A stretch of 51,962 nt of DNA from assembly GCA_016191015.1 (NCBI GenBank), contig JACPPM010000170.1, positions 1 to 51,962 of the forward strand, in the 5' to 3' direction. The notes beneath the pieces are model-generated. The model saw only the letters and a list, made by a program, of their open reading frames with translations, did no database searches and was not told the origin of the DNA. Origin of the DNA: Acidobacteriota bacterium (lineage in GTDB: Bacteria; Acidobacteriota; CAIWXX01). Shown in pieces: positions 38,318-42,344 of this stretch (positions are counted from its first letter, which is position 1; every line of letters begins with the position of its first letter). The translations under genes were made by a program, and so were the position numbers.

Positions 38318-38445
38318 GATGCACTCCCTTCAGATGATTCCTGGCGGCCGATTCTATCCGTCGGGAGGGAATTCGTCCAGGTACCCGTCAGCCGAAATTC
38401 GCGGGTGCCGCCCTCCCCCCTTCGTGTAGTATAGTGGCGCCCGCA

Positions 38446-39636
38446 ATGAAGAAGGAAAGTCGAAATCACACCGGGACCACCCGCGCGAAGCCCACAGCCC
38501 GAACACCGCGCGGCGGGGGCGGAGCGGTGGCTTCGGAATCGATCCACGGAGTCGCGGACCTGTCGGAACGACACGGCGCCTTTCTGAGACGCGTCGAGAA
38601 CAACTACCTCCCCTCACGCGAGGATCCCAACCTGCCGCTCCCCTTGGTCCAGGAATGGGGCTTGCGCGACGGCACGGAGGTGCACGGAACAATACAGCCG
38701 GCACATAGCGGTCGCCGGTCGGTCGCGAGCATCGTGTCGGCCAATGGCCGCTCGAAGCCAGGCGATCATCGCGCGTTGCCCGATTTTCAGAGTCTCATTT
38801 CTGTGAATCCCACGACACACATCGAGCTGGGGATCGAGAGATCGCAGACGAGCCTGAGGGTGATCGATCTCATCGCTCCGATCGGGCGCGGCCAGCGAGG
38901 GCTGATCGTGTCACCGCCGCGCGCCGGGAAAACGACCCTGATTGAAGAGATCGGTGTGGCCATCTCGAAGCACCACCCTGACATTCACTTGATGCTCCTT
39001 CTGATCGACGAGCGGCCCGAGGAGGTGACGCACTTCAGGAGATCCGTGAAGGCAGAGGTCCTGGCGTCCTCGTCGGACTCCGCCGGCGAGTCTCATTTGA
39101 GAATCGCGTGGATCGCGGTCGAGCGAGCGAAGCGGCTGGCCGAGGCGGGTCGGGACGTCGTCATCCTGCTCGACAGCATCACGCGCCTCGGCCGTGCGAG
39201 CAATCGTGAGATGGGGGCCGGCGGTCGTGCCATGTCGGGCGGCGTGGACCACCGGGCACTCCAGTTTCCTCGGCAGTTCTTTGGCGCGGCGCGATCGTGC
39301 GAAGGGAGCGGAAGTCTGACGATCCTCGCAACTGTCCTCATCGACACCGCCAGCCGCATGGACGAGGTGATCTTTCAGGAGTTCAAGGGGACTGGGAACA
39401 TGGAGTTGATCTTGGACCGTGACTTGGCCGAACATCGCATCTTTCCCGCCGTGGATGTTCTGCGTTCGGGGACGCGCAGGGAGGAGCTGCTCTGTTCGGC
39501 CGACGAGCTGAGGCAGCGACATTTGCTGCGCCGCGCGCTCGCGGGCATGTCGCTCGAGGATGCGGCCCGCAGACTGATCGACCGTGTGGAGAAAACGGAG
39601 TCGAACTCTGAGCTCTTGAAGGCGATCACGCGCTGA
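38446..39636 (+). CDS. Rho-like transcription termination factor, divergent
   Basis: A 396-residue hexameric-helicase family protein. The core is clearly Rho: LIAPIGRGQRGLIVSPPRAGKTT (Walker A), LLLIDERPEEVTH, VVILLDSITRLGRASN, GGVDHRALQFPRQFFGAAR and FKGTGNMELILDRDLAEHR. Differences from canonical Rho are marked: the STFDEPA loop is SSSDSAG, the Arg after it is Ser, and PPKAGKT is PPRAGKT. The N-terminal RNA-binding domain is weak (HGAFLRRVENNYL). ATG 38446 is preferred; a GTG four codons earlier overlaps a TATAGT. It may be the only Rho or a second paralogue; this window cannot tell. Confidence 0.85.
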   Translation: MKKESRNHTGTTRAKPTARTPRGGGGAVASESIHGVADLSERHGAFLRRVENNYLPSREDPNLPLPLVQEWGLRDGTEVHGTIQPAHSGRRSVASIVSANGRSKPGDHRALPDFQSLISVNPTTHIELGIERSQTSLRVIDLIAPIGRGQRGLIVSPPRAGKTTLIEEIGVAISKHHPDIHLMLLLIDERPEEVTHFRRSVKAEVLASSSDSAGESHLRIAWIAVERAKRLAEAGRDVVILLDSITRLGRASNREMGAGGRAMSGGVDHRALQFPRQFFGAARSCEGSGSLTILATVLIDTASRMDEVIFQEFKGTGNMELILDRDLAEHRIFPAVDVLRSGTRREELLCSADELRQRHLLRRALAGMSLEDAARRLIDRVEKTESNSELLKAITR

Positions 39637-39652: not shown

Positions 39653-42250
39653 CTACTCGGCCGGCCAGATCTTGTCGTAGATATCAGGGTAGAGTTTCTT
39701 GCCGCAGTCGGGGCAGCACCCGTGGGAGAAGTCAGCCTGCGAGTGGTCTCGAATATACTCTTCGAGCTGAGTCCAGCGTCCGGAATCGTCCCGGATTCGC
39801 CGGCAGGAGGCGCAGATCGGAAGCAATCCGCTGAGGATCTTGATCTTGGCCATGGCCTCGTTGACTCGCGCGGTGAGCTGTTGTTCTCGCGCTTTCAGCT
39901 GGCGAACGCGGTAGAGGTGGAGCGACTGAGCGGCGAGCAGGCACGCGAGGATGCAGAGACCGTAGAACCAATATGTCTGGTAAAATCGTGGATCGATCTC
40001 GAAATCGACGAACGCACCCGCTTCGTTCCAGATTCCGTCGTTGTTGCAGGCCGCCACGCGGAACCTGTAGCTGCCGGGTGGGAGATACGTATAGTACGCA
40101 ACCCGGCGAGTACCCGCATCGGTCCAGTCAGGATCGGTTCCGTCGAGCTTGTATCTGAAGCGGACCTTCTCGGGGGCGATCAGACTCAACGCCGTGTAAT
40201 GAAATTCCAGGTTCGTCGTACCAGCGGAGAATCGGTGTGACGCTGGGGCGTTGATCTCCCGACCCTGAGCCAGGATTGTCTCGATCCTGACCGGCGGCAC
40301 GAGAGCGTTGGTTTTCAGGTTCAGCGGGTCGATGACGACTGCCCCCCTGGTCGTGGGAAACCAGAGTCGGCCGTCGCGGGCCCGCCATCCGGCCGGTTGG
40401 GACCCGCCCCGGCATTCCGCGCTGGGCATCCCATCGGATGTGTCGTATGAAACGCACGAGACCCCCCGTGTCTTGCCGTCGGCGAGATCATCGAGCTGGT
40501 GTTTCGCGACTCTGAAGACACCACGGTTGCCACTCATCCACAAGTTCCCCTGATCGTCTTCAAGGATCTGATGGATGAAATCCGCGGGAAGGCCTTCCTT
40601 CATCGTGTAGGCGGTACACTTCTCGCCCTTCAGCCTGGCCAAGCCGCCTCTCGTCGCGATCCACAACGTGTCATCACGATCGCAGTGCACCGCGTTGACG
40701 ATTTGATCGGGCAGGCCGTCGGCCTTTCCGATGGTCGTGAAACGGCCCTCACTGAACCGGCTCAACCCAGCCCCATACGTGCCAATCCAGAGCGCTCCGA
40801 TCGAATCCTCACTGATGCAGAGCACGTAGTCCTCGCCCAGCCCATCCTTCCGTGTGTGACGAGTGGCGGCGCCATCTTTGAGCCGATAGAGACCCACGCG
40901 AGTTCCGATCCAGATCGCACCATCGCGGGACTCGTGAATCGCGAATACGCCGTATTGAGACAGACCTTCGCTGAGCTCGTACCTCGTGAATCGGCCGTCT
41001 TTGAAGCACGCCAGGCCGCCGCCGTCAGTGCCGACCCACAAAGCGCGCCGGCGGTCTTCGCAGATCGACATCACCATCTGGTGAGGGAGCCCGCTGGACT
41101 CGCGAAACGTTGTGAAGACCCCGTTCATGAACCTGTTCAGCCCACCTCCGTTGGCTCCCAGCCACACCGCACCGCTGGAATCCTCGTAGATGCATTGGAC
41201 AACGTCTCCGGAAAGTCCTTCGCGCGTCGTGTACGTGAGAAACTTTCCGTCCTTCACCCGACTCAGTCCACCTCCATCGGTGCCCACCCAAAGAGATCCT
41301 TCGCGGTCTTCACAGACCGAAAAGACGACATCGCTCGCCAGCTCCGTCGTGTCACTCGTCAATCCCGCGACCCGCCCGTCTCTCATCCGACAGAGACCCC
41401 CGCCGAAGGTCCCCAGCCACAGGTTGCCGTCCTTGTCTTCGACCATATCCGTGATGAAGTCATTGCAAAGGTCCGTCCTTGTTGTATGTGCCGTGAAGCT
41501 GCCGTCACGGTAGCAGTTCACGCCGCCACCGTACGTACCGATCCACAGATCACCTCTGCGGTCGAACAGCAGCGACAGGATGACGTTGCTCGTGAGTCCG
41601 TCGCGCTTCGTATAGGTCGCGATCTTCCCATCGTGCCACCTGTTCAATCCGGTCCGTGTTCCGATCCACACGCCACCAGCGGGGTCCTCCATCACCGCGT
41701 AAACGACATCGTGGCAAAGGCCGTCCTTGGTCGTGAAATTCGTGAATGTGCCGTCCCTGAGCCTGCTCACTCCACCTCCGTCGGTCCCAATCCACAGCGC
41801 CCCTTCCGAGTCGTCGTGCAACGATAGAATGTAATCGGACGCCAGGCCCTCCTGCACGGTGTAGGTCTTGAATCGCCCGTCTCGATAGCACGTGAGCCCA
41901 CCGCCGTCGGTGCCGATCCAAAGTGACTTGTCGGATGTTTCGTACAGAGTGACGATGAAGTTGCTCTTCAGCCCAGGCGCATTGCTCCGCTCAAAAGTTG
42001 TGAACCGCACGCCATCGAATCGAACCAGCCCGTCATGGGTCGCGAGCCAGAGGTATCCATCCGACGTCTGCACGACGGATTCGATGCTGTTGCTGGGCAG
42101 TCCAGCCTCTCTCTGCCAAGTGTCCACGCGGTACTGCGTCGGCAAGCGGTCAGGATCGAGCGCCCCTAGCGGTGCATCGCACCCGAGCACCCCAGCCATC
42201 GCGATCAGTCCGGCGAGGATGCTGCGATCGAGAGGTGCCTGTGCCAGCAA
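39653..42250 (-). CDS. Two-propeller Reg_prop/Y_Y_Y membrane sensor with Cys-rich C-terminal module
   Basis: A protein of 865 residues. I count 14 Reg_prop blades (WIGTDGGGL-like), fitting two seven-bladed propellers, then a Y_Y_Y domain (PDWTDAGTRRVAYYTYLPPG), one membrane helix (YWFYGLCILACLLAAQSLHLY), a short coiled coil and a C-terminal module, LLPICASCRRIRD ... SHGCCPDCGKKLYPD. No histidine kinase, GGDEF or AraC output follows, unlike the usual hybrid sensors. The four-Cys pattern CxxC/CxxC suggests zinc. TTG 42250, after AGAGGG, is chosen because a promoter -10 box covers the upstream ATG at 42319. A lipobox-like VLGC follows the hydrophobic segment. Confidence 0.82.
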   Translation of the reverse strand: MLAQAPLDRSILAGLIAMAGVLGCDAPLGALDPDRLPTQYRVDTWQREAGLPSNSIESVVQTSDGYLWLATHDGLVRFDGVRFTTFERSNAPGLKSNFIVTLYETSDKSLWIGTDGGGLTCYRDGRFKTYTVQEGLASDYILSLHDDSEGALWIGTDGGGVSRLRDGTFTNFTTKDGLCHDVVYAVMEDPAGGVWIGTRTGLNRWHDGKIATYTKRDGLTSNVILSLLFDRRGDLWIGTYGGGVNCYRDGSFTAHTTRTDLCNDFITDMVEDKDGNLWLGTFGGGLCRMRDGRVAGLTSDTTELASDVVFSVCEDREGSLWVGTDGGGLSRVKDGKFLTYTTREGLSGDVVQCIYEDSSGAVWLGANGGGLNRFMNGVFTTFRESSGLPHQMVMSICEDRRRALWVGTDGGGLACFKDGRFTRYELSEGLSQYGVFAIHESRDGAIWIGTRVGLYRLKDGAATRHTRKDGLGEDYVLCISEDSIGALWIGTYGAGLSRFSEGRFTTIGKADGLPDQIVNAVHCDRDDTLWIATRGGLARLKGEKCTAYTMKEGLPADFIHQILEDDQGNLWMSGNRGVFRVAKHQLDDLADGKTRGVSCVSYDTSDGMPSAECRGGSQPAGWRARDGRLWFPTTRGAVVIDPLNLKTNALVPPVRIETILAQGREINAPASHRFSAGTTNLEFHYTALSLIAPEKVRFRYKLDGTDPDWTDAGTRRVAYYTYLPPGSYRFRVAACNNDGIWNEAGAFVDFEIDPRFYQTYWFYGLCILACLLAAQSLHLYRVRQLKAREQQLTARVNEAMAKIKILSGLLPICASCRRIRDDSGRWTQLEEYIRDHSQADFSHGCCPDCGKKLYPDIYDKIWPAE

Positions 42251-42314
42251 ATGAACCCTCTTTCTCCGCCGCCTACCGGAGGTCGGCGCGAGCCGATCGG
42301 ACCCGTGTGACCAG

Positions 42315-42344
42315 AACATAGGACGCCCCGATGCCCTCCGTCAA
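42315..42344 (-). promoter_or_regulatory. Possible promoter of the Reg_prop gene
   Basis: On the minus strand TTGACG and TATGTT are separated by 18 bases. The -10 box includes the first in-frame ATG, which argues for a downstream start. Confidence 0.4.

Follow-up and report, generated by a model that had tools for sequence, protein, structure and literature searches.

Several described signalling systems provide a frame for the receptor examined in this study. In REC-GGDEF proteins, the linkers between the two domains follow a seven-residue rule counted from the K-P motif of REC, which has been explained by a switch of coiled-coil register (PMC8041772). In Pseudomonas aeruginosa, the dimer of SiaD forms a parallel coiled coil whose two stalk motifs are bound by four SiaC molecules (PMC8457831), while binding of DNA or RNA has been proposed for the archaeal output domain HalOD2 (PMC5847659). 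The solved structures nearest to the protein described here are double-propeller sensors of hybrid kinases. This protein is encoded in a stretch of 51,962 nucleotides from an Acidobacteriota bacterium, the whole of which is referred to below as the window. As far as the searched libraries and the open literature show, its kind of receptor is known and its output module is undescribed. We consider it fairly probable that the window protein is a one-component transmembrane receptor with a coiled-coil-driven Cys4 output belonging to an uncatalogued family. Receptors that stop before any known output domain tend to be dismissed as incomplete; in the genomes examined, many such receptors carry one and the same uncatalogued module at their end.

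Receptor gene and domain architecture

The features of the receptor gene are listed in Table 1. With two Reg_prop propellers and a Y_Y_Y domain, the window protein belongs among the Reg_prop/Y_Y_Y receptors, and its top PDB match was the two-propeller sensor 4a2l (E 4.5e-62), with 3v9f also matched. The Reg_prop profile (E 3.5e-72) matched 13 separate stretches, and a degenerate fourteenth blade, RDGRLWFPTTRG, was counted by eye. The blades, Y_Y_Y domain and membrane helix claimed in an earlier note on this DNA were therefore recovered, as was the missing kinase: Pfam gave no HisKA or HATPase match in the window protein, which is thus not a hybrid two-component kinase, and no kinase gene lies downstream. 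Nor did Pfam find a GGDEF domain that would make the protein a diguanylate cyclase. Translation could begin at the ATG used in Table 1 or at an in-frame TTG at 42250, the start chosen by the earlier reader, which gives a shorter and neater signal peptide; either is possible. The receptor gene stands alone, with a divergent neighbour upstream and a convergent rho gene on its other side (16 bp between the stop codons). No carbohydrate locus was noticed adjoining it, and it is only the class of the sensor that would suggest the polysaccharide signal proposed earlier.

Table 1. Features of the receptor gene and its convergent neighbour, in window coordinates
Feature	Position	Strand	Details and basis
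rho transcription termination factor gene	38434-39636	+	convergent with receptor gene
Receptor gene, whole	39653-42319	-	888 aa from ATG; ORF listing
N-terminal hydrophobic stretch, probable signal peptide	42164-42223	-	residues 33-52; hydropathy
Fourteen Reg_prop blades, two seven-bladed propellers	40250-42130	-	limits approximate; Pfam PF07494, PDB, eye
Y_Y_Y domain	39995-40174	-	residues 716-775; Pfam PF07495, E 1.1e-16
Membrane helix	39914-39970	-	residues 784-802; hydropathy, basic residues after helix (cytoplasmic side)
Coiled-coil linker	39833-39898	-	period 3.5 hydrophobicity; heptad a/d positions at fixed distance from first Cys
Four-Cys output module	39668-39820	-	P834, C836-x2-C839, R843, W849, H866-x2-C869-x2-C872, within last 55 residues

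A widespread and conserved C-terminal module

The tail has the general form C-x2-C...W...H-x2-C-x2-C. A search with the tail alone gave 19 matches in its own genome, down to 4.4e-12, one of them a fragment. With these same-genome matches and cysteines that are invariant across phyla, the motif lies far beyond chance. In this genome, 12 of the 40 Y_Y_Y proteins end in the module and one more carries a broken copy, while others of the 40 end in kinases, one of them a Ser/Thr kinase. That receptor (L145, contig C67) is a Reg_prop/Y_Y_Y protein fused to a Ser/Thr protein kinase domain (PF00069, E 2.5e-39). Two further Reg_prop/Y_Y_Y receptors of the same genome, L163 1-2088 (+) and L167 1120-3189 (-) on contigs C51 and C78, end in an H-box-like helix (LLHE[LA]RQPLQ) without an ATPase domain, and HisKA matches L163 only.

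Module carriers made up 134 of 396 genomes in the phylum of the window, 54 of 118 in the phylum to which Desulfospira belongs, 114 of 247 in that of a Geobacteraceae genome and 27 of 100 in that of a Spirochaetia genome, or 27-46% across three phyla, the Desulfospira and Geobacteraceae samples (delta-type) overlapping in genomes. Named loci include members from Spirochaetia, Nitrospinota, Neomarinimicrobiota, Planctomycetota and Rhodocyclaceae, and in several phyla a single genome carries up to about twenty module-ended receptors; the cultured Desulfospira joergensenii, for one, has 17 matches. Spread by phage or plasmid was rejected as an account of this distribution, the module having no phage match and one plasmid match.

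All of the signature residues (P, C, C, W, H, C, C) were invariant in 81 distinct tails. Among 203 distinct copies, drawn from profile hits that copies without any remaining module would escape, the four cysteines were kept as two CxxC pairs in every case and the histidine in 202, so the loss of cysteines in homologues that the earlier note had named as a reason for doubt was not seen. The exception for histidine is L142 2145-3239 (-), a degenerate copy that has lost W and H but kept the four Cys, and whose immediate downstream neighbour is a gene with an intact module. Beyond the putative metal ligands, conservation in the 203-copy set extends to W, H, R, E and Y, and the modal spacing between the CXXC pairs is 29 residues. 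The closest Reg_prop paralogues show higher conservation in the module (45-67%) than in the sensor (38-48%).

Neither Pfam, NCBIfam (curated cut-off) nor PHROGs (E 0.01) gave a match above threshold for the module, and known Cys4 families were rejected as candidates, matches to assorted zinc domains all being sub-threshold. The PDB contained no match by sequence or by fold, and the moderate-confidence predicted model returned no Foldseek hit at E <= 0.001 and no VIA hit at Z >= 2. In the AlphaFold monomer model (pLDDT 83, core about 91), the module is laid out as a knuckle and a hairpin followed by two helices, the second of which begins at the second CxxC. The predicted order of elements in this moderate-confidence model is the one usual for a treble clef, a fold to which the searches gave no match, and zinc binding by the four cysteines is plausible on the same model. 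A search of the open-access literature by motif and by description did not find the module.

Partner domains and placement

The inputs joined to the module include Reg_prop/Y_Y_Y, REC, REC-GAF, PAS, GAF, dCache, HAMP, MASE1, MASE3/6/11, solute-binding and other sensory domains. The earlier note's statement that tails of this kind also follow PAS and receiver domains was therefore correct and can be extended to GAF, dCache, HAMP and MASE inputs. In nearly all copies the module is C-terminal, where a kinase or GGDEF domain normally sits; the exceptions are L034, L035 and L038, which are arranged PAS-module-REC, and the SiaD-like L070, while in L030 the frame continues past the module without a recognised domain. 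The tabulation of partner domains leaves out seven single-member families and cannot alone exclude a kinase domain; a regular expression for the kinase ATPase motif found none in the 203 module proteins, and a GGDEF domain occurs in the same protein in one of the 203 copies. This C-terminal placement behind varied inputs without a kinase agrees with the stand-alone output suggested earlier.

Module proteins range widely in build. A membrane segment is present in 84 of 191 long copies, REC-module proteins are only about 210 aa long, and L208 (188 aa) is a minimal protein of membrane helix, coil and module. A 108-aa frame of coil and module alone, L075 4394-4717 (+), adjoins a second module gene and may be a stand-alone form. 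In the window's own genome, a REC-module gene (L061) is overlapped by a gene for a Reg_prop hybrid kinase, a pair that is the two-component version of the single-chain design of the window protein. When conserved gene neighbours were considered as a clue to a partner, only kinases, receivers, other module proteins and small unrelated clusters were found, the first three being joined by shared sensory domains.

The single copy with a GGDEF domain belongs to a complete siaA-siaB-siaC-siaD-like operon (L070 1419-5717) in a genome from the same family as the window, encoding a HAMP-SpoIIE protein, a DUF6272 protein, SiaC and a SiaD-like cyclase (best PDB match 7e6g). In this cyclase the module sits between two copies of the SiaC-binding stalk motif, with GGDEF downstream. 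The fusion was found once in 396 genomes, and no Sia stalk with the module but without GGDEF was found in 247 and 396 genomes.

Linker lengths and coiled-coil register

The earlier note had placed a short coiled coil before the four-Cys tail; the residues are as it described, and its case for a coil is strengthened by linker lengths that come in heptad steps. Among 74 non-redundant relatives, the helix preceding the module has a hydrophobic period of 3.5 (permutation p 0.0019), with hydrophobic positions at -7, -10, -14, -17, -21, -24 and -28 relative to the first Cys. For REC-module proteins, the linker was measured from the REC Lys (K-P motif) to the first Cys of the module. In the first ten such proteins it was 41, 48 or 55 residues long, which leaves a remainder of 6 modulo 7 in all ten. 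The addition of 60 more loci gave 24 non-redundant direct REC-module proteins, of which 19 have linkers of 34, 41, 48, 55, 62 or 69 residues, all again 6 modulo 7. The other five, set apart post hoc, are three of a K-G-D-type loop class (42, 42 and 49; remainder 0) and two of a K-D-P-D loop class (51 and 58; remainder 2), and within each loop class lengths step by seven. The chance of finding 19 of 24 in one class is near 1e-11 under uniform and independent remainders, a figure that kinship among the proteins makes too small. In addition, 51 non-redundant regular-expression hits, not all of them PAS, include 30 with a PAS-to-first-Cys distance of exactly 35, and a motif at the end of Y_Y_Y lies 59 residues before the Cys in eight of eight cases. 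Since linker lengths change in steps of seven, as in REC-GGDEF proteins, the module is read as a coiled-coil-driven dimeric output, and by this analogy it is probably driven in the same way, through coiled-coil register.

Proposed mechanism and alternative explanations

If the window protein is a one-component receptor, its double propeller and Y_Y_Y domain in the periplasm would act, by way of the single membrane helix and then a parallel coiled coil, on the cytoplasmic Cys4 module, which would be the output. In many bacteria, the module family would stand where a histidine kinase or GGDEF output is otherwise used. If the coiled coil shifted in register or packed differently, the two modules of a dimer would most likely be re-oriented. 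We infer that the protein is a zinc-bearing dimer and that, when active, its two modules engage a common protein partner instead of generating a product or contacting DNA; this protein partner is our best guess. The many copies per genome, with no fixed neighbour, suggest that the modules work in trans towards one target that they share. More tentatively, and with slightly less than an even chance of being right, the module may be an undescribed output domain with GGDEF-like versatility, through which many sensors of one cell converge on a common partner or product.

Other explanations can be weighed against this reading. The module could be a DNA- or RNA-binding zinc finger, making the protein a membrane-tethered regulator: many nucleic-acid binders contain Cys4 motifs, and archaeal HalOD2, with its two CXXC motifs, is a proposed DNA/RNA binder (PMC5847659). 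However, nucleic-acid binding is disfavoured because the module is negatively charged (median net charge -2 over 53 non-redundant copies); moreover, no HTH or known DNA-binding family matched it above cut-off, and the frequency of membrane segments in the long copies (84/191) also argues against this explanation, which we regard as unlikely. A cytoplasmic redox or metal sensor that modulates the receptor, making the module an input, would suit Cys4 sites, which can sense redox state or metals, and an invariant His that lies beside them. Such a role is slightly more doubtful still, given that the module follows complete sensors or REC domains that already supply an input and that almost every copy lacks any part after the module that could take up a signal from it.

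The small size of the module (about 55 aa), together with the REC that follows it in L034, L035 and L038 and the GGDEF that follows it in L070, would fit a structural cap or dimer clamp closing the coiled coil, with the true output elsewhere. This also seems improbable, as the REC-module proteins and the 188-aa L208 have no other part able to act, and conservation extends to W, H, R, E and Y, beyond the putative metal ligands. Kinases are the usual targets of Reg_prop/Y_Y_Y sensors, and the protein might accordingly be a histidine kinase truncated by mutation or assembly error, but we give this almost no weight: 18 further matches occur in the same genome, where 12 of 40 Y_Y_Y proteins end in the module, and the module is found in many phyla. 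The next gene downstream is the convergent rho, with no frame-split kinase. A split, frame-shifted or truncated kinase is refuted by this gene and the 18 further matches.

The one-component receptor with a Cys4 output thus remains our preferred reading. With it, many "orphan" PAS, GAF, REC and Reg_prop proteins could be recognised in annotation as signalling proteins that have one output in common, and the REC-module proteins of about 210 aa would offer a concrete handle on what these receptors control.

Comparison with known systems

The window protein shares a periplasmic double propeller, a Y_Y_Y domain and a membrane helix with the Reg_prop/Y_Y_Y hybrid systems (4a2l, 3v9f), but in it the module replaces their HisKA, HATPase, REC and AraC parts. 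In the SiaABCD c-di-GMP system, SiaD itself has no module, whereas the relative in L070 carries one inserted in its SiaD-like stalk; the window protein, unlike SiaD, has no Sia stalk. Of the described domains, archaeal HalOD2 is the nearest analogue as described (PMC5847659). HalOD2, from halobacterial response regulators, resembles the module in its linkage to REC, its helical N-terminal part, its two CXXC motifs and its predicted zinc site. However, the CXXC motifs of HalOD2 are 20-25 residues apart, compared to 29 in the module, and HalOD2 has been reported only from a few halobacteria, the two being set apart here by published description (PMC5847659). The REC-GGDEF and PAS-GGDEF cyclases of the DgcR, WspR and PadC type have the same inputs and C-terminal place as the module proteins, and also have in common with them a parallel coiled-coil linker, steps of seven from K-P (PMC8041772) and many copies per genome. 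The module differs from these cyclases in lacking the GGDEF fold and a catalytic motif, and in being a domain of about 55 aa built on Cys4, W and H.
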